7,974 bases of DNA, taken from positions 1 to 7,974 of the forward strand of contig JAUXGM010000100.1 in the NCBI GenBank assembly GCA_030622125.1. The letters run 5' to 3'. Within the stretch, counting starts at the first letter, position 1. Each line of letters begins with the position of its first letter. This document shows, piece by piece, positions 358 to 7,954 of the stretch. Under the pieces are notes generated by a model. That model searched no databases and was not told where the DNA came from. It worked only from the letters and a program-made list of their open reading frames with translations. The stretch is from a bacterium (lineage in GTDB: Bacteria; AUK180). Both the position numbers and the translations under genes were made by a program.

Positions 358-942
358 ATGGGCAAAGTATTTGAAATAACCTGGTATGGTAGAGGCGGAC
401 TTGGTGCTAAAACAGGGTCTATACTCTTAGCAGATGCTGCAATTGCTGCTGGGAAATTCGTTCAATCCTTTCCTGAATACGGTCCGGAAAGAATGGGAGC
501 TCCGATAAAGGTCTACAACCGACTTGCCGATGAACCGATCAGATTGCATACCGCAATAACCAATCCTGATTTTATTATTGTTATTGATACGGCATTATTA
601 GAGAACATCAATTTCGGGGAAGAGTTAAAAGATAACGGAACTATCCTCATCAATACGGAAAAATCACCGGAAGAGATCAAAAAAGATCTTAATTTGGGTA
701 ATACAAATCCAAAGATATATACAATTGATGCAACCGGTATTTCAATTAGGCATCTTGGAAAAAACATTCCCAATATTCCTATACTATCAGCATTCAGTAA
801 GATTACGAATAAAATTGAGATCAATGAGATCAAAAAGCATATTCATGATAAGCTTATCATTAAATATGGTGAAGATATTATAGAAAAAAATATAGAAGCA
901 CTTGAAAAAGCTTATGCGGAGGTGAAAAATGAAAGAAATTAA
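358..942 (+). CDS. porG: Pyruvate:ferredoxin oxidoreductase, gamma subunit
   Basis: This 194-residue protein is the gamma subunit of the 2-oxoacid:ferredoxin oxidoreductase family, equivalent to the catalytic-gamma domain of single-chain PFOR. With the alpha, beta and delta subunits it oxidises a 2-oxoacid with CoA in the cytoplasm. The N-terminus has the family signature WYGRGGLGAKTGS (residues 9-21), followed by FPEYGPERMGAPI (38-50), typical of the region contacting CoA and the alpha subunit. The core ends near residue 165, before a helical tail. ATG 358 is chosen over GTG 346 because the Shine-Dalgarno site overlaps the GTG. The 3' end overlaps porD by 14 nt. Pyruvate is the likely substrate, from the resemblance of the alpha subunit to Thermotoga POR; a branched-chain 2-oxoacid enzyme (VOR) cannot be excluded. 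Confidence 0.93.
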   Translation: MGKVFEITWYGRGGLGAKTGSILLADAAIAAGKFVQSFPEYGPERMGAPIKVYNRLADEPIRLHTAITNPDFIIVIDTALLENINFGEELKDNGTILINTEKSPEEIKKDLNLGNTNPKIYTIDATGISIRHLGKNIPNIPILSAFSKITNKIEINEIKKHIHDKLIIKYGEDIIEKNIEALEKAYAEVKNERN

Positions 943-1216
943 AAAAAGCTGGAAAAATATTCCCATCGGTGGAAATATATTAGAAGCTGGAAATTCTAAA
1001 AATTACATAACCGGGACATGGAGAACATTTATACCTCGGTTAGATAAAGAAAAATGTGTAAATTGTTTTCAGTGCTGGATGTTTTGTCCGGATAATTCAA
1101 TTTCAATAGTAGAAAATAAGATGGTAGGATTTGATTATGATCATTGTAAAGGATGCGGTATGTGTGTATCTGTGTGCCCGACTAAGGCAATTACAATGGA
1201 AAAAGAGGAGAAGTAA
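929..1216 (+). CDS. porD: Pyruvate:ferredoxin oxidoreductase, delta subunit (2x[4Fe-4S] ferredoxin)
   Basis: This 95-residue electron-transfer subunit passes electrons from the TPP centre of POR to soluble ferredoxin. Two complete CxxCxxCxxxCP motifs are visible, at Cys43-46-49-53 and Cys73-76-79-83, each followed by the usual Pro, which predicts two [4Fe-4S] clusters. The N-terminal 40 residues form the extension typical of PorD; it carries a GTWRTFIPRLD segment (29-39) just before the first cluster. The gene starts inside porG (14-nt overlap) behind GCGGAGGTG at 917-924, so its translation is probably coupled to porG. Length and gene position match the G-D-A-B order of thermophile and anaerobe POR operons. 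Confidence 0.95.
   Translation: MKEIKKSWKNIPIGGNILEAGNSKNYITGTWRTFIPRLDKEKCVNCFQCWMFCPDNSISIVENKMVGFDYDHCKGCGMCVSVCPTKAITMEKEEK
1205..1210 (+). promoter_or_regulatory. Shine-Dalgarno site that fixes the porA start at 1218
   Basis: GAGGAG lies 7 nt before ATG 1218, one base after the porD stop. The same frame stays open back to an ATG at 1131, but those 29 extra codons lie inside porD, have no ribosome binding site and lack family resemblance. The conserved PorA N-terminus begins at 1218. Confidence 0.8.
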
Positions 1217-1217
1217 A

Positions 1218-2396
1218 ATGGCTGCAAAATATATTCCTTTAACCGGTGCAGAGTCAGCTGCTTACGCAATGAAACAAATAAATCCCGATGTTCTTGCCGC
1301 TTATCCTATAACTCCACAAACTCCGATCGTTATGAAATTTTCAGAATATGTTGCAAATGGTGAGGTTGATACGGTAAGCATTACGGTAGAATCGGAACAT
1401 TCTGCAATGTCGGCAACCGTTGGTGCAGCAGCAGCAGGTGCCCGTGCAATGACGGCAACTGCGGCAAACGGGCTTGCACTTATGTGGGAAATAGTTTATA
1501 TAGCAGCATCTACAAGATTACCGATAGTAATGGGTATTGTAAATAGAGCTCTTTCGGGACCGATCAATATTCACGGGGATCATTCGGATACAATGGGTGC
1601 AAGGGATGCCGGTTGGATCCAGGTTTATTCCGAAAATAATCAAGAGGTATACGATAACTATTTTATGGCATTACGAATAGCGGAAAATGAAGATGTCCTA
1701 CTTCCCGTAATGGTCTGTCAGGATGGATTTATAACATCACATTCAGTCGAAAATGTTATGCCTGCTCCCGATCAAGTGGTAAAAGAATTTATTGGAAAGA
1801 AAAAATTCAAGGGGCTTTTAACTGCTGAAAAGCCATTTACAATAGGACCACTGGATTTACAGGATTATTATTTTGAACACAAAAAGCAGCAGCATGAAGC
1901 AATGAAAAAGGTATTTCCCGTAATTGAAGCAATTCAAAAGGAATTTGCAGAAAAATTCGGCAGAAAATATGATGTAATCGAAGAATATAGAACCGAAGAT
2001 GCCGACATCGTAATTATGGGTATGAGTTCTGTAATGGGAACGGTAAAAGAAGTTATAGACGCTGCCAGGGAAAAAGGCATAAAGGTCGGAGCGGTTAAAC
2101 CGAGATTTTTCAGACCGTTCCCGGGTGAGTATTTGAAAAAGATACTTTCTAAATTCAAAGCGGTTGGTATATTAGATAGATCCGATTCCTTCGGCAGTCT
2201 GCCTCCTTTATTTACCGAAACGGCAGCAGTGTTTTATACATCTTCAACAAAACCCCTTGTAAAGAGTTATATTCATGGTTTGGGCGGCAGAGATACAACG
2301 GTGAAATTACTTGAAAAAGTTGTTACCGATCTGCAAAAGCTTTCAGAAACAGGCGAAGGTAATTTTACATCTGAATACCTTGGCGTAAGAGAATAG
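1218..2396 (+). CDS. porA: Pyruvate:ferredoxin oxidoreductase, alpha subunit
   Basis: This 392-residue subunit supplies the pyrimidine-binding half of the TPP site. YPITPQTPI (29-37) contains the substrate-binding Thr equivalent to Thr31 of Desulfovibrio PFOR (here Thr32). VESEHSAMSA (57-66) carries the Glu that activates the TPP aminopyrimidine (Glu60 by alignment from memory). NRALSGPINIHGDHSD (109-124) contains the Arg that contacts pyruvate (Arg110). The C-terminal half (about 260-392) is the transketolase-C-like domain with KPRFFRPFP (294-302) and LDRSDSFGS (319-327), ending in YLGVRE as in Thermotoga PorA. The close match to Thermotoga PorA, recalled rather than aligned, favours pyruvate as substrate. 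The gene is one base downstream of porD and 9 nt upstream of porB. Confidence 0.95.
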   Translation: MAAKYIPLTGAESAAYAMKQINPDVLAAYPITPQTPIVMKFSEYVANGEVDTVSITVESEHSAMSATVGAAAAGARAMTATAANGLALMWEIVYIAASTRLPIVMGIVNRALSGPINIHGDHSDTMGARDAGWIQVYSENNQEVYDNYFMALRIAENEDVLLPVMVCQDGFITSHSVENVMPAPDQVVKEFIGKKKFKGLLTAEKPFTIGPLDLQDYYFEHKKQQHEAMKKVFPVIEAIQKEFAEKFGRKYDVIEEYRTEDADIVIMGMSSVMGTVKEVIDAAREKGIKVGAVKPRFFRPFPGEYLKKILSKFKAVGILDRSDSFGSLPPLFTETAAVFYTSSTKPLVKSYIHGLGGRDTTVKLLEKVVTDLQKLSETGEGNFTSEYLGVRE

Positions 2397-2405
2397 GAGG
2401 AAAAG

Positions 2406-3365
2406 ATGGCTATATTACTAAAAGATCTTGTAAATAAAAATGTACCATTGAACGGTGGACACCGAATGTGCCCGGGTTGCCCAACTCCGGTAATAGTTAA
2501 GCAAATACTTATGTCTACCGATCATCCTAAGGTAGCTGCAAATGCAACAGGGTGTCTTGAAGTAGCGACTACTATCTATCCATATACGGCATGGAATATT
2601 CCTTGGATTCATAATGCTTTTGAGAATGCCGCTGCAACGATAGCGGGTATAGAGTCTGCTTTCAGGGCACTTATAAAAAGAGGCGAGATTGCCGAGGATA
2701 GAAAACAAACGAAATTCATTGCTTTCGGTGGCGATGGAGGCACCTATGATATAGGTCTTCAATCTCTTTCCGGAGCGCTTGAAAGAGGACACAATTTTCT
2801 TTATGTTTGCTATGACAATGAAGGATATATGAATACCGGTATTCAGAGATCCTCTGCTACACCGATTGGTGCAAATACAACAACCACTCCTGTCGGTAAG
2901 GTAAGTTATGGTAAAAAAGAACCAAGGAAAGACCTGATCTCCATTGTTGCGGCACACCATATACCTTATATTGCGAGTGCAGCTCCGCACAATTGGATGG
3001 ACACGATGAATAAAGCGAAAAAAGCAATAGAGGTTAACGGACCGGCATTTATGGATGTTATATCTCCCTGTGTCCCCGGTTGGAAAATAAGAACAGATGA
3101 GTGGAAAGGAATATCGGAAGCAGCGGTAAAGACCTGTTTCTGGCCCCTAATTGAAATTGAAAATGGGGAGTGGAGATTAACCGGTGAATCAAAAAAGATC
3201 GCTGATGGTAAAATGGAGAAGTTACCCGTTGAAGAGTTCTTAAAATCCCAGGGTAGATTTAAACATCTTTTTAAATTGGAAAATAAGGATGTTATAAAAC
3301 TAATACAGGATGATGTAGATAAAAGCTGGAATTACTATAAAAGAATGGCAGGATATAACGATTAA
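2406..3365 (+). CDS. porB: Pyruvate:ferredoxin oxidoreductase, beta subunit (TPP and [4Fe-4S])
   Basis: This 319-residue subunit binds the TPP diphosphate and the proximal [4Fe-4S] cluster. All four expected cluster ligands are present: Cys22 and Cys25 (CPGC), Cys50 (ATGC) and Cys222 (SPCVPGW), matching the pattern known from single-chain PFOR. The TPP/Mg2+ motif starts at GGDGG (108-112) and continues through LSGALERGHN (121-130) to YDNEGYMNTG (136-145). No catalytic residue appears to be missing. AGGAGG (2395-2400), overlapping the porA stop, lies 5 nt before the ATG. Its stop is only 3 nt from the next gene, a Roadblock protein, with no hairpin in between, so transcription probably continues into the signalling genes. 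Confidence 0.95.
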   Translation: MAILLKDLVNKNVPLNGGHRMCPGCPTPVIVKQILMSTDHPKVAANATGCLEVATTIYPYTAWNIPWIHNAFENAAATIAGIESAFRALIKRGEIAEDRKQTKFIAFGGDGGTYDIGLQSLSGALERGHNFLYVCYDNEGYMNTGIQRSSATPIGANTTTTPVGKVSYGKKEPRKDLISIVAAHHIPYIASAAPHNWMDTMNKAKKAIEVNGPAFMDVISPCVPGWKIRTDEWKGISEAAVKTCFWPLIEIENGEWRLTGESKKIADGKMEKLPVEEFLKSQGRFKHLFKLENKDVIKLIQDDVDKSWNYYKRMAGYND

Positions 3366-3368
3366 TTT

Positions 3369-3953
3369 ATGAAATTATCTCAGATCGGCGACAAAATTAA
3401 CATTATTAATAATGATCTACAGGATTTTATTCGTGAAACAGATGCATCGAATATAATACTATGCGATATGGGGGGAGAAATATTGACTTATATCGGGAAC
3501 AACTCTCCCTTTGATTTCCCAAATATTGCTGCGATGGCTGCGGGAAGTTATGCAACCACAAAGGGTATTGCCAATCTTTTAGGGCAGAAGGAATTTTCTT
3601 TATTATTTCACCAGGGTAGTACTAATAATATTCTAATTTCCAATGTTGAAAATTATGCAATATTTATTATTGTGTTTGACAATAGTTCCGTTCTCGGTAT
3701 TGTTAAACAAAAATCACGTGATTTAAAAACTAAACTGGATGTAACTTTCAAGGATATAGTTAAGGGAAAGGGAATTATTGTTAAAAAGGCAAAGATATTT
3801 GAGGAACATAAAAATATTGAGGAAAAAGAAGAAAAATCCGTTAAGAAAAAAGAAGAAACACGATCAACAAAGAAAGAAGAAGAAAACGAAAAAGAAAGCA
3901 AAAAATTTGATTTTGATTCCCTTATGATAGATGATCTTGATGATATTTTTTAA
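3369..3953 (+). CDS. Roadblock/LC7 domain protein with Lys/Glu-rich linker and acidic tail
   Basis: Residues 1 to about 130 look like a Roadblock/LC7 (MglB-type) domain: an opening helix, a central strand ASNIILCDMGGEIL (26-39), the helix with AAMAAGSYATTKGIANLLG (54-72), and strands FSLLFHQG and YAIFIIVFD. In MglB-like proteins this fold dimerises and binds an MglA GTPase. Residues 138-179 are a low-complexity Lys/Glu linker, probably disordered or helical. The last 15 residues form an acidic tail ending IDDLDDIF, which resembles the end of the second Roadblock protein at 4553. ATG 3369 is the only sensible start, but there is no good ribosome binding site; the nearest purine stretch (AGGAT, 3350-3354) is 14 nt away. 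Start and stop spacing suggest reinitiation after porB. The exact function is unknown. Confidence 0.82.
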   Translation: MKLSQIGDKINIINNDLQDFIRETDASNIILCDMGGEILTYIGNNSPFDFPNIAAMAAGSYATTKGIANLLGQKEFSLLFHQGSTNNILISNVENYAIFIIVFDNSSVLGIVKQKSRDLKTKLDVTFKDIVKGKGIIVKKAKIFEEHKNIEEKEEKSVKKKEETRSTKKEEENEKESKKFDFDSLMIDDLDDIF

Positions 3954-3964
3954 GGATTGATACT

Positions 3965-4552
3965 ATGACAATGTTAAATTTTGCAAAGAAAGAAGTCATT
4001 TGTAAAATCGTTTACTATGGTCCCGGACTTTCCGGAAAAACTACAAACCTTAAATTTCTTTACGATAAGATGCGTTCAAAATATAAGGGAAAAATGATCG
4101 CCATCGCAACGGAAACGGAACGAACACTTTTTTTCGATTTTCTGCCGATAAATTTAGGACAGATCAAGGGATTTTCTTTAAAATACCAATTATATACCGT
4201 TCCCGGACAAGCAATGTATACAAACAGTAGAAAATTGATATTAAAGGGATCCGATGGAATTGTCTTTGTTGCAGATTCACAGATCACCAGATTTGATGAA
4301 AATAAACAATCTTTACGAGATATGGGGCATAATTTAGCGGAGCAGGGATTGGACATTAGAACAATTCCACTTGTAATGCAATGGAATAAAAGGGATCTGC
4401 CCAGTATTGTTACGGTCCAAACAATGGAACAAGTATTAAATTTCAGGAAAGTTTCATCGTATGAAGCGGTTGCTTCATCGGGAAAAGGGGTTTTTGAAAC
4501 ATTAAAAGAAGTAATACGACTTGTTTATCTTAATATAAAGGGGGAGGAATAA
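3965..4552 (+). CDS. mglA: MglA-like small Ras-type GTPase
   Basis: This 195-residue cytoplasmic GTPase resembles Myxococcus MglA, the polarity switch for gliding and type IV pili, in both length and residue numbering. The P-loop is GPGLSGKTT (19-27). ETERTLFFDFLP (50-61) contains the Arg53 used as the intrinsic arginine finger in MglA. TVPGQ (78-82) is the MglA variant of the DxxG switch II motif, with Thr78 replacing Asp and Gln82 catalytic. NKRD (141-144) is the guanine-specificity motif, and ASSGKG (170-175) takes the SAK-loop position. ATG 3965 fits AAGGA at 3952-3956 and aligns end to end with MglA; ATG 3971 is less well placed. It sits between two Roadblock genes, likely partners or GAP-like regulators. 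The process it controls here is inferred, not shown. Confidence 0.92.
   Translation: MTMLNFAKKEVICKIVYYGPGLSGKTTNLKFLYDKMRSKYKGKMIAIATETERTLFFDFLPINLGQIKGFSLKYQLYTVPGQAMYTNSRKLILKGSDGIVFVADSQITRFDENKQSLRDMGHNLAEQGLDIRTIPLVMQWNKRDLPSIVTVQTMEQVLNFRKVSSYEAVASSGKGVFETLKEVIRLVYLNIKGEE
4541..4548 (+). promoter_or_regulatory. Strong Shine-Dalgarno site of the second Roadblock gene
   Basis: GGGGAGGA lies inside the last codons of mglA, 4 nt before ATG 4553, and the mglA stop (TAA 4550-4552) directly abuts that ATG. This is one of the strongest ribosome sites in the array. The first Roadblock gene and the DUF4388 gene lack one, so the second Roadblock protein may be made in excess of its neighbours. 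Confidence 0.65.
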
Positions 4553-5023
4553 ATGTTAAAGGGAAATAAAATATTACAACCGGAAGATCTAAAAAAGATG
4601 AACGAAATTATGTACGGATTAAAAAAGCAAACAAAATCATTTATTATTTTAATAGTTGACGATTCCGGACAATTAATTACAAGCACCGAAGGTGATTCTT
4701 CTGTGGATCCAATCTTATTGGGTACTTTAACAGCGGGAAATTTCGGTGCGACAAATGAACTTGCAAGGCTGATCGGTGAAAGTGAATTTACACTTGTTCT
4801 TCATGAAGGTAACAAGGAAAATATTCATATGCTTGCAATTGGCAGTTTCGGAATACTTGTAGTAATATTCGGGAACGATGCTCCAATCGGACTTATTCGA
4901 ATGTATTCAAAAAAAGCAGTAAAAAAACTTGAGCCCATTTTGAAGGGAATGCAGGTACAAAAAGAGAAAAACAAAGCGGACTTACCCTCTGATGAGGATT
5001 TAGACAAACTTTTTAATTGGTAA
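4553..5023 (+). CDS. Roadblock/LC7 domain protein, MglB-like
   Basis: This 156-residue protein has the length of MglB and a near-complete Roadblock domain at about 12-130. It opens with helix EDLKKMNEIMYGLKKQT (11-27), then strand FIILIVDDSGQLIT (30-43), the central helix PILLGTLTAGNFGATNELARL (53-73, with AGNFGATNELA typical of the family) and strands FTLVLHEG (79-86) and FGILVVIFG (99-107). A short charged linker leads to the acidic end DLPSDEDLDKLFNW (143-156), whose DLDxLF core matches the tail of the Roadblock protein at 3369. MglB is the GAP-like co-regulator of MglA, and its position directly after mglA supports that role here. Which of the two Roadblock proteins is the true GAP partner cannot be told from sequence. 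Confidence 0.88.
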   Translation: MLKGNKILQPEDLKKMNEIMYGLKKQTKSFIILIVDDSGQLITSTEGDSSVDPILLGTLTAGNFGATNELARLIGESEFTLVLHEGNKENIHMLAIGSFGILVVIFGNDAPIGLIRMYSKKAVKKLEPILKGMQVQKEKNKADLPSDEDLDKLFNW

Positions 5024-5024
5024 T

Positions 5025-5759
5025 ATGAGTTTTTCAGGAAGTTTATCCGATCTAACATTTTCAGAGGTCCTTCAACTTGTTCACCTTGAGGAAAAAACCG
5101 GAACCCTTACCATTTGGAACAGCTGGGATGGAAAAAAGATCGTATTTAAAGAGGGAAACATTCTTCATGCGGGAAATCTTGAAAAAGATGAGAAATTTGG
5201 AGATATGTTGCTTGAATCAAAAGTTATAAATGAAGCACAACTTAGAGAGGCACTTCGTACTCAAAGAGTAACTAAGACAAAAAAAAGAATTGGTGAGATA
5301 TTACATGAAAAATATAGTATCGGAATGGATGAGATACAAGAGGGATTAAAAAATTATATGCTTGAAAATATCTTTTCCATATTTTCATGGGAAGATGGTG
5401 AATTTCACTTTTCAAACGAAATGGCACGGACGGAAGATAAGATCCCATATCCACTCAATGTTAAGGTTGAAAACATTATTATGGAGGGTTCTCGTAGAAT
5501 TGATGAGACAAGTAGAATTGTAAGAGAAATACCTCATAAACATTTTATTCTTAAATTAAATATTGATATCGATGGTATTGAAAATATCAATCTTCATCCG
5601 GATGAATGGAAATTGTTGTCACTTGTTGATAATAACAAAGATATTGAAGACATCAGGATACTAACCGGATATACGGATTTTCAGGTTTTAAAGATCATAT
5701 TTTCATTGAAAAATGCTCATATAATAATTTTGGAAGAAAAATTATCTCAAGTAAATTAA
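5025..5759 (+). CDS. DUF4388/PATAN domain protein with GspE-N-like helices
   Basis: This 244-residue protein is a probable cytoplasmic adaptor or sensor. The N-terminus (1-55) is the DUF4388 (PATAN) signature: SFSGSLSDLTFSEVLQLVHLEEKTG, then the strand pair GTLTIWN and GKKIVFKEGNILHA. Residues 58-108 (FGDMLLESKVINEAQLREAL, then KRIGEILHEK) resemble the N-terminal helical domain of type II secretion/type IV pilus ATPases (GspE-N/MshEN). SWEDGEFHF (121-129) resumes the DUF4388 fold. Residues 190-244 resemble a winged-helix-like end (HPDEWKLLSLVDNN... ITVL-rich helices) common in these proteins. There is no ribosome binding site; the ATG follows the preceding stop by one base. Its place in a GTPase-Roadblock cluster and its resemblance to pilus ATPase domains hint at a pilus or polarity link, but nothing in the sequence proves this. 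Confidence 0.82.
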   Translation: MSFSGSLSDLTFSEVLQLVHLEEKTGTLTIWNSWDGKKIVFKEGNILHAGNLEKDEKFGDMLLESKVINEAQLREALRTQRVTKTKKRIGEILHEKYSIGMDEIQEGLKNYMLENIFSIFSWEDGEFHFSNEMARTEDKIPYPLNVKVENIIMEGSRRIDETSRIVREIPHKHFILKLNIDIDGIENINLHPDEWKLLSLVDNNKDIEDIRILTGYTDFQVLKIIFSLKNAHIIILEEKLSQVN

Positions 5760-5760
5760 A

Positions 5761-6816
5761 ATGAAAAAAGTTTTGGTGGGGATTTCCGGTGGCATTGACA
5801 GCAGTGTTAGTGCCTATCTATTGAAAATGAAGGGATACAAGGTTATCGGCATCACTTTGAATATATTAGATGCATTATCAAAAACCGTCTTTGAGAATAC
5901 GAAAAAAATTGCCGAAAAATTGGATATGCCTCTTTATTATGTTGATGTTGAAAAAAAATTCTATGATAAGGTGATCCGGATTTTTATCAATGAGTATATT
6001 ATTGGAAGAACTCCGAATCCCTGTGTTATCTGCAATAGGGATATTAAGATCAAAACCCTGTATGATCTATTAAAAAAATATAATGCCGACCTTATCGCCA
6101 CAGGTCATTATGCAAGAATTAAGGCATTTCACGGTAAAAAAATAATTGCAAAGGGATCAGCAAAAGAGAAGGAACAGTCTTATTTCCTTGCACTTTTAGA
6201 AGGCAAATTATTAGAAAAAATGATATTCCCGCTCGGGAAATTAACAAAAGATGAGGTTCGTTCAATTTATCAAGATGTATTTGGTAACCTACATCATAAA
6301 AAGGAATCTCAAGACCTTTGTTTTGTTCAGAATGGACATTATGCGGAATTTATTAAAGATCACTCCAATATGAAGCCAATTCCAGGAAATATTATCTTGA
6401 ACGATAAAGTAGTAGGTAAACATAGGGGGATCATAAACTATACCGTTGGACAACGAAAGCATCTTGGTGTCTCTTACAAGCATCCGCTTTATGTGAAAAA
6501 GATAGATCAAAAAAGAAATGAGGTTATACTTTCCTCAAAAGAGGAGGCATTGGAGAATAAGATATTCTTGACCGACCCGATTTTTCATATTCCCTATAAT
6601 GAGCTATTAAATATGAAGTTAACTGTTAAAATAAGGTATCGTTCCGAAAGTATTTCTTGTATCTTGAAAAAGGAAAAAGAAAAATTTTATCTGGATATTT
6701 CAAAGAACCCGAAAATAATATCCCCCGGACAACTTGCCGTTATCTATTACAAAGATCTTGTTGTTGGCGCCGGTTGGATAGGATTTTCACAATATCATCC
6801 TCATATAACGGTATGA
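5761..6816 (+). CDS. mnmA: tRNA-specific 2-thiouridylase MnmA
   Basis: MnmA activates U34 of tRNA-Lys, -Glu and -Gln with ATP and replaces O2 with sulfur, giving s2U. The PP-loop SGGIDSSVSAYL is at 9-20. RTPNPCVICN (83-92) has Cys91 at the place of the E. coli catalytic Cys102, and Cys88 where E. coli has Asp99, giving a CxxC pair. ATGHYAR (113-119) is the tRNA-binding signature, and SQDLCF (183-188) carries Cys187, equivalent to Cys199. SPGQLAVIYY (321-330) begins the C-terminal beta-barrel signature and VVGAGWIGF ends it. The segment after the PP-loop (33-52) is shorter than usual and lacks the common CCSxxD stretch. The start is ATG 5761, one base after the previous stop, without a ribosome binding site. 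Its last 77 bases overlap the convergent adh gene. A housekeeping gene in this array suggests co-transcription rather than shared function. Confidence 0.96.
   Translation: MKKVLVGISGGIDSSVSAYLLKMKGYKVIGITLNILDALSKTVFENTKKIAEKLDMPLYYVDVEKKFYDKVIRIFINEYIIGRTPNPCVICNRDIKIKTLYDLLKKYNADLIATGHYARIKAFHGKKIIAKGSAKEKEQSYFLALLEGKLLEKMIFPLGKLTKDEVRSIYQDVFGNLHHKKESQDLCFVQNGHYAEFIKDHSNMKPIPGNIILNDKVVGKHRGIINYTVGQRKHLGVSYKHPLYVKKIDQKRNEVILSSKEEALENKIFLTDPIFHIPYNELLNMKLTVKIRYRSESISCILKKEKEKFYLDISKNPKIISPGQLAVIYYKDLVVGAGWIGFSQYHPHITV
6740..6816. other. 77-bp convergent 3' overlap of mnmA and the alcohol dehydrogenase
   Basis: The + strand mnmA frame stops at 6814-6816 and the - strand dehydrogenase frame stops at 6742-6740, so both use this stretch for coding. 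It encodes MnmA residues 327-351, including the conserved VVGAGWIGF, and dehydrogenase residues 380-404, including the conserved EDDIVKIL. Only the last nine or so dehydrogenase residues lie beyond the family's usual end. No terminator hairpin is seen in or near it; a 4-bp CGGT/ACCG pair at 6809-6819 is too weak. Confidence 0.8.
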
Positions 6817-7954
6817 CCGAATCTATATATTCATTTTTGGAATTCTTTATTTTTATTGTTTCACGGGCAAATTTTCGAAGCATTTTTTCATCACTTACAT
6901 AATTACTTAATGTCTCGGTTATTCCAATATCTTTCTGCCAATTCTCGTATTTTTCTATACCTTTTCGGATTGTTTCTTCACGATTTCCCGTTTGCGGTAT
7001 TCCCATTATTTTTACGGCAAAATCGTAAAATTTTTCAGGATTATGCGGAGCAATATATCTTAAATATGAAGGCATTATCAAAGCCAAGCCAAGTCCGTGT
7101 GGAATGTCAAGGTAAGCACTAAGTGTATGTTCAATTGCATGCATTGTGAAATTCCTTCCTCTCCCATTGTTGATGATCCCATTCAGGGCAAGTGTTGCAG
7201 AATAGGAAATATTCTCTCTTGCTTCGTAATTTTTCGGCGAATGAAGTGCTGTGGGAACATATTTTAGAACCGTTTTAAAAATAGTTTCCGTAAAACCATC
7301 CTGTATCGGTGCCTTTTCTTTGGAGTTAAAATAACTCTCCGAAATATGAGTGATTATATCAACCCCTCCATAAGCGGTTTGTTTTTTGTTCACCGTATAT
7401 GTAAGTTCAGGATCAACGATTGAAAGTGATGGAAATATCTTTTCATTGAAGAGAGCCAATTTTTTGTTTTCTTTCCAATTTGTTATTACCGCTATCTGAT
7501 CCATCTCCGAACCCGTTGCAGCAATAGTTGGAACAGCAATGATCGGAAGTGTCTTTCCCTGACTTTTCTTTGAAGAATTTTGTAGATATACATAATCCCA
7601 TACGGAAGATTCGGGATCAAAATACGAAATTGAAATTCCCTTTGCAGCATCAATGACACTTCCGCCCCCCAATGCCAAAAGGAAATTTGCCTTAAATTTA
7701 TATGCCGCCTTCTTTGCTCTGTCAATTGTGGTTACCCTCGGATTCGGTTCAATACCTTCAAAAACAGTGAATTCAATACCTGCATTTTTCAATTGCTTTG
7801 TAACTTTATCAAGATAACCGTTTTTTCGTGCACTTCCTTGCCCAATAACTATCATTGCTCTTTTTCCGAAAGCCCGAGCATATTTCCCGATCCTTTCGAT
7901 ACTACCTTTCCCAAAAATAACTTTAACAGGATTATACAAAGAAAAATTTTGCAT
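6740..7954 (-). CDS. Iron-containing, probably NADPH-dependent alcohol dehydrogenase (butanol dehydrogenase/YqhD type)
   Basis: This 404-residue protein belongs to the type III, Fe2+-dependent alcohol dehydrogenases and closely resembles clostridial butanol dehydrogenase. It would reduce aldehydes to alcohols, disposing of reductant in fermentation. The Rossmann part contains KVIFGKGSIERI (11-22), GQGS (38-41), EPNPR (69-73), GGGSVIDAAKG (96-106) and PTIAATGSEMDQIAV (142-156). The metal ligands are expected at Asp199 and His203 (GGVDIITHISESYF, 196-209), His272 and His286 (HAIEHTLSAYLDIPHG, 272-287). Q39 replaces the second Gly of the GGGS found in YqhD-like enzymes, a position near the cofactor phosphate. 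The C-terminus runs about nine residues (RQQQDLCNR) past the usual end, into mnmA. It has an ideal ribosome binding site; its promoter is outside the window. Exact substrate is unknown. Confidence 0.93.
   Translation of the reverse strand: MQNFSLYNPVKVIFGKGSIERIGKYARAFGKRAMIVIGQGSARKNGYLDKVTKQLKNAGIEFTVFEGIEPNPRVTTIDRAKKAAYKFKANFLLALGGGSVIDAAKGISISYFDPESSVWDYVYLQNSSKKSQGKTLPIIAVPTIAATGSEMDQIAVITNWKENKKLALFNEKIFPSLSIVDPELTYTVNKKQTAYGGVDIITHISESYFNSKEKAPIQDGFTETIFKTVLKYVPTALHSPKNYEARENISYSATLALNGIINNGRGRNFTMHAIEHTLSAYLDIPHGLGLALIMPSYLRYIAPHNPEKFYDFAVKIMGIPQTGNREETIRKGIEKYENWQKDIGITETLSNYVSDEKMLRKFARETIKIKNSKNEYIDSVIPLYEDDIVKILSNRRQQQDLCNR

Follow-up and report, generated by a model that had tools for sequence, protein, structure and literature searches.

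The window, by which we mean the whole stretch of 7974 bp that was analysed, is a complete contig (G000:C11) whose 5′ end lies 357 bases before porG. Nine genes, all on the + strand, occupy positions 358–6816 in the order porG-porD-porA-porB, RbA, mglA, RbB, DUF4388 and mnmA. Pyruvate:ferredoxin oxidoreductase (POR) is a central anaerobic enzyme, and MglA is a small GTPase that serves in other systems as a switch for cell polarity. The features of the locus are as follows.

299–327, + strand: promoter-like site TTGAAA-17-TATAAT (11 of 12 consensus positions, the top match in the window; by consensus only)
358–942, + strand: porG, POR gamma subunit (PF01558, 1e-34; TIGR02175, 197 bits, cut-off 81)
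929–1216, + strand: porD, POR delta (2x4Fe-4S) subunit (TIGR02179, 108.6 bits, cut-off 60)
1218–2396, + strand: porA, POR alpha subunit (PF01855, 4e-74; PorA_Arch, 1e-149)
2406–3365, + strand: porB, POR beta (TPP) subunit (PRK11865 PorB, 7e-111, under the equivalog cut-off; type A in the PorB tree)
3369–3953, + strand: RbA, MglB-type Roadblock protein (MglB structures, E 2e-15; PF03259 at about the cut-off)
3965–4552, + strand: mglA, Ras-like GTPase of Group 1 type (M. xanthus MglA structures, E 2.5e-74, 192 residues)
4553–5023, + strand: RbB, MglB-type Roadblock protein (M. xanthus MglB structure 6h5b, E 2e-25)
5025–5759, + strand: DUF4388 (PATAN) protein (PF14332, 6e-31, 107.5 bits, cut-off 25; NF053729, 39.3 bits, cut-off 38)
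5761–6816, + strand: mnmA, tRNA 2-thiouridylase, the last gene of the unit (NF001138, 345 bits, cut-off 284)

Genes of the window and their products

The porG and porD genes overlap by 14 nt, and the gaps that follow, from porD to mnmA, are 1, 9, 3, 11, 0, 1 and 1 nt, the 3-nt gap being that between the porB stop codon and the start of RbA. The original prediction had described such a run of genes on one strand with gaps of 0–11 nt and no terminator, and both parts of the description were borne out: every gene was found, and no + strand terminator-like site is present between positions 358 and 5790 (to the mnmA start). Terminator-like sites number three in the whole window, versus 5.3 expected from shuffling. 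The promoter-like site at 299–327 sits directly 5′ of porG. The AT-rich window has many promoter-like matches (43 versus 29.8 expected). On the − strand, an iron-containing alcohol dehydrogenase (Fe-ADH) gene at 6740–7954 converges with mnmA and overlaps it by 77 nt. The non-coding region 1–300 contains a repeat-like string, CTCTGTGCCTCTGTGGTTAA, at 216–235; sites within two mismatches of it occur four times in the home genome and four times in the related genome G002, and none were found in the remaining five genomes searched.

All four POR subunits match pyruvate/ketoisovalerate families. Since the pyruvate-specific equivalog cut-offs are missed by the window POR, we infer its substrate. The home genome (G000) has a single PorB match. 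Its relatives G001, G003 and G002 carry a second, different POR at another site (L265–L267).

In the window MglA, the stretches GPGLSGKT, TVPGQ and NKRD align with the P-loop, G3 and G4 motifs of M. xanthus MglA, as in Group 1 proteins, and TERTLFF aligns to TDRTLFF of the same protein, which places an intrinsic arginine finger beside the G2 threonine, a described feature of Group 1 MglA (PMC4316618). The Roadblock/LC7 domains of RbA and RbB are closest to MglB structures, both scoring under the strict NF052242 cut-off. The acidic DxDxLF-type C-terminal end of M. xanthus MglB is present in both proteins: RbB aligns with M. xanthus MglB through its C-terminal SDEDLDKLF, and RbA has a charged linker and a C-terminal MIDDLDDIF that is, by eye, nearly invariant in the home family. 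A third Roadblock domain is encoded elsewhere in the home genome (G000:C47:18685-18945, L002), within a 437-aa frame. At locus L024 of genome G019, the MglA reading frame contains one in-frame TAG.

The DUF4388 domain, which we take to be the same as PATAN, is accompanied by an MshEN-like stretch at residues 56–108, with a weak match to MshE 5htl (E 0.036). The MshEN c-di-GMP receptor has two canonical RLGxxLxxxGxIxxxxLxxxLxxQ-type motifs; the DUF4388 proteins of the home family retain only some of the canonical c-di-GMP residues. The AlphaFold model of the protein has a mean pLDDT of 40, too low for use. The mnmA gene is retained in the home family but is less conserved (36–55%).

Judged from their sequences, the four proteins of the window switch (MglA, RbA, RbB and the DUF4388/PATAN protein) resemble a known 1:2 MglA:MglB polarity module. 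A similar gene order, mglB-mglA-mglB-DUF4388, occurs without POR in families f116 (L191) and f259 (L197), and the module is thus independent of POR. Since the home genome encodes at least four PilB-sized and at least two PilT-sized T2SSE ATPases, a role of the home MglA switch in pilus polarity is plausible. PilM_2 matches were present in 25 of 26 linked genomes.

Recurrence of the por-mgl junction

The original prediction had proposed a search for the junction in related genomes. The search was run, and the junction proved to be conserved: of the other four sampled members of the home family, G001, G002 and G003 have the full block from porGDAB to mnmA, and G004 has it up to the contig limit, while G006, from the same class as the home genome, has porA-porB-RbA-mglA at a contig end. 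The junction was also found in other phyla. In the sample of 386 genomes, MglA was present in 149; PorB was searched in 141 MglA-bearing genomes and gave a match at E <= 1e-30 in 66 of them; by our count, 45 families have both MglA and a multi-subunit PorB match. In 13 of these 45 families with both genes, porB lies directly 5′ of mglBA on the same strand. Twelve have porB-mglB-mglA (f1, f2, f12, f16, f22, f46, f94, f125, f131, f140, f159 and f223); in the remaining one (f106, locus L236 of G110), a divergent, long-branched mglA follows porB after 55 nt with no mglB between. Two more families, f42 and f168, have genes between porB and mgl. According to kinship data, f12, f22, f94 and f42/f168 fall outside the home phylum (the phylum of f94 was sampled as f94 and f195, that of f22 as f22, and that of f42 as f42 and f168). 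The por-mgl junction is therefore found in at least five phyla.

Adjacency by chance is expected in far fewer than one family (estimated from ca. 1.5 kb in ca. 2.5 Mb on one strand). The original prediction had regarded a chance neighbourhood of unrelated operons as the simpler alternative, and POR and MglA indeed have no obvious functional link; since the arrangement is kept in the home family and 12 other families and recurs in at least five phyla, this alternative is refuted and has almost no probability left.

The spacing at the junction bears on a further claim, that por and mgl share a promoter. The gap between porB and mglB is −1 to 10 nt in the home family and in two of three genomes of the Desulfurobacteriaceae-type family f12, and 11 nt in the third f12 genome; across f1, f2 and f12, it is −1 to 14 nt. 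Since a gap of −1 to 11 nt leaves no room for a promoter, mgl is very likely carried on the por transcript in the home family and f12, which supports the claim for these. It does not extend readily to several other families, where the gap is roughly 50–130 nt and may contain a separate internal promoter. When porB-mglB regions were scored for internal promoters against shuffled sequences, only f16 and f46 reached the 1–5% level. The f22 genomes share a conserved block between porB and mglB.

A larger cluster and three POR types

In most of the distant loci, dnaX, ebfC/ybaB and recR are found upstream of por. Most por-mgl loci are thus part of an old cluster, dnaX-ebfC-recR-porGDAB-mglB-mglA, that has been trimmed differently by different lineages. 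Families f1, f2, f125, f131 and f106, the home family among them, have por-mgl without dnaX-ebfC-recR, with recR located elsewhere; none of the three genes was detected upstream of por in loci L034, L036, L133 and L134, and recR is on another contig in G000–G003, G004 and G006. Conversely, eight families have dnaX-ebfC-recR-por without mgl, and dnaX-ebfC-recR-mgl without por is also found in Bacteriovoracales, Krumholzibacteria and Deferribacterota. Since recR-mglBA exists without POR in many lineages, and recR-por without mgl, neither partner requires the other nearby.

The interval between recR and mgl was compared in 35 loci that have recR 5′ of mgl. POR lies there in 11 loci and other genes in one (L158), and in the other 23 the interval is at most 556 nt long and contains nothing of gene size, so that POR constitutes the intervening genes between recR and mglB in 11 of the 12 sampled loci that have any. 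At a further locus beyond the 35 (L104), the recR-mgl space is ca. 1.6 kb. The MglA+MglB tree does not firmly resolve how the home MglBA is related to the clade of the cluster; the home por-mgl junction could therefore have arisen separately.

The PORs found at this position belong to three clades of the PorB tree, which we call types A, B and C. Type A, which includes the window POR, consists of four separate subunits. Type B (f22 and f46; 100/100 in the PorB tree, stem 1.61) has fused porGD and porAB; in f22 loci L140–L142, the POR is encoded by two fused genes, porG-porD and porA-porB, located between recR and mglB. Type C (f42 and f168; 100/100 in the PorB tree) occurs with NADH-dehydrogenase-like genes. 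In f42 (L152), the POR genes are followed by NuoF-like and HoxU/NuoG-like genes and then by mglBA, which suggests that this POR is NADH-linked; in f168 (L184), the spacing of L152 is repeated, with two ferredoxin-matching stretches between porB and mgl. Families f16 and f46 group together in the MglA+MglB tree (91/83), and their PORs are of type A and type B, respectively; thus, the POR beside related switches differs. The fused type B POR could, on the other hand, have arisen from an ancient type A POR in situ and not by replacement. No single-chain PFOR was apparent upstream of mglB among the upstream ORFs of the sampled loci.

Possible reasons for the association and comparison with known systems

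On balance, we consider it probable, by a small measure, that the window is one transcription unit of POR and a four-gene MglA switch, and that it represents a conserved co-expression unit under the POR promoter. The por-mgl position would then have been kept since anaerobes reliant on POR benefit from co-expressing it with the switch. MglA-GTP would do what it does elsewhere, namely switch the polarity of type IV pili; the two MglB-type proteins would be its GAP/GEF partners, and the PATAN protein would be an adaptor on either the output or the input side. POR and the switch would be coupled through the dosage and timing of expression, with no need for a POR product to act on the GTPase.

The main alternative is that an old housekeeping cluster was simply inherited, and that por-mgl is a remnant left after losses and moves, the link between POR and MglA being unselected. 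Since por-mgl usually lies inside the older cluster, which the original prediction had missed, inheritance has to be taken seriously as a third possibility next to chance and coupling. The gene order recurs across many families, each pairwise link among the three gene groups persists without the third group, and dnaX-recR-mglA-DUF149 synteny is already known in deltaproteobacteria (PMC3983030). Passive inheritance hardly explains, however, why three POR subfamilies occupy one slot, why differing POR types are found beside related mglBA genes, or why five families keep por-mgl though their recR is elsewhere. The variation of POR types in one slot favours either selection for position or repeated insertion of POR. 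Plain inheritance is less favoured by it, and we regard it as a possible but not a likely explanation.

Roadblock proteins occur in nutrient-sensing complexes, e.g., Ragulator-Rag, and by analogy POR, acetyl-CoA or reduced ferredoxin might act directly on the MglB/Roadblock or PATAN protein, so that the GTPase would read carbon or electron flow and set polarity or pilus activity. Conservation of the junction and its repeated pairing with different PORs would agree with such direct metabolic control. The same diversity of PORs, however, speaks against a single conserved protein contact. Domain profile searches, moreover, found no extra sensor domain in RbA or RbB, and we consider direct control improbable.

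Returning to co-expression, one may tentatively go further and suppose that selection keeps any POR subfamily beside mglBA since anaerobic carbon and electron flow feeds the MglA polarity switch, although we would not expect this to hold. If true, bacterial cell polarity would receive a metabolic input in several phyla; to our knowledge, few inputs to MglA-type switches have been described outside Myxococcus. The recurrence of POR-MglBA with varied POR types suggests that central anaerobic metabolism is tied to surface motility or pilus polarity, and the pairing is open to testing in cultured organisms such as Geobacter and Desulfurobacterium.

PATAN-linked and 1:2 MglA:MglB modules, as well as recR-mgl synteny, are known already, and the POR-mgl pairing was not found described. 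A literature search, in which subscription journals were thinly covered, returned no paper joining POR with MglA, and neither mglA nor POR appears, under the names searched, in a paper on Desulfurobacterium physiology (PMC12724263). Like the MglA/MglB module of M. xanthus and Thermus, the window has a Group 1 MglA, an MglB adjoining mglA and the acidic-LF MglB end; unlike it, the window has two MglB-type proteins flanking mglA, followed by DUF4388, and lies directly 3′ of POR. In locus L158 of a Myxococcus-like genome, whose MglB end is as in the M. xanthus structures, a kinase and other genes, not POR, separate recR and mglB. Systems with 1:2 MglA:MglB and PATAN-linked Group 1/5 MglA were described by Wuichet and Sogaard-Andersen in 2014 (PMC4316618), and the window resembles them in having one MglA with two MglB-type proteins and an adjacent PATAN-type gene; the main text of that paper mentions neither pyruvate nor recR. 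The dnaX-recR-mglA-DUF149 (ebfC) synteny of deltaproteobacteria reported by Milner in 2014 (PMC3983030) matches the gene order around mglBA in the por-mgl cluster loci. The presence of POR in the recR-mglB slot and the spread to other phyla are not in that report, and the home family differs from it in that dnaX-ebfC-recR are not at the por-mgl locus. In Geobacter sulfurreducens, the homodimeric Por is GSU0097 (PMC7894505) and MglA is GSU0099 (PMC2825233), so that POR precedes MglA by two locus tags. This POR is a single-chain enzyme, unlike the PorGDAB of the window, and the published locus tags suggest that it may be a fourth POR type at the same slot.
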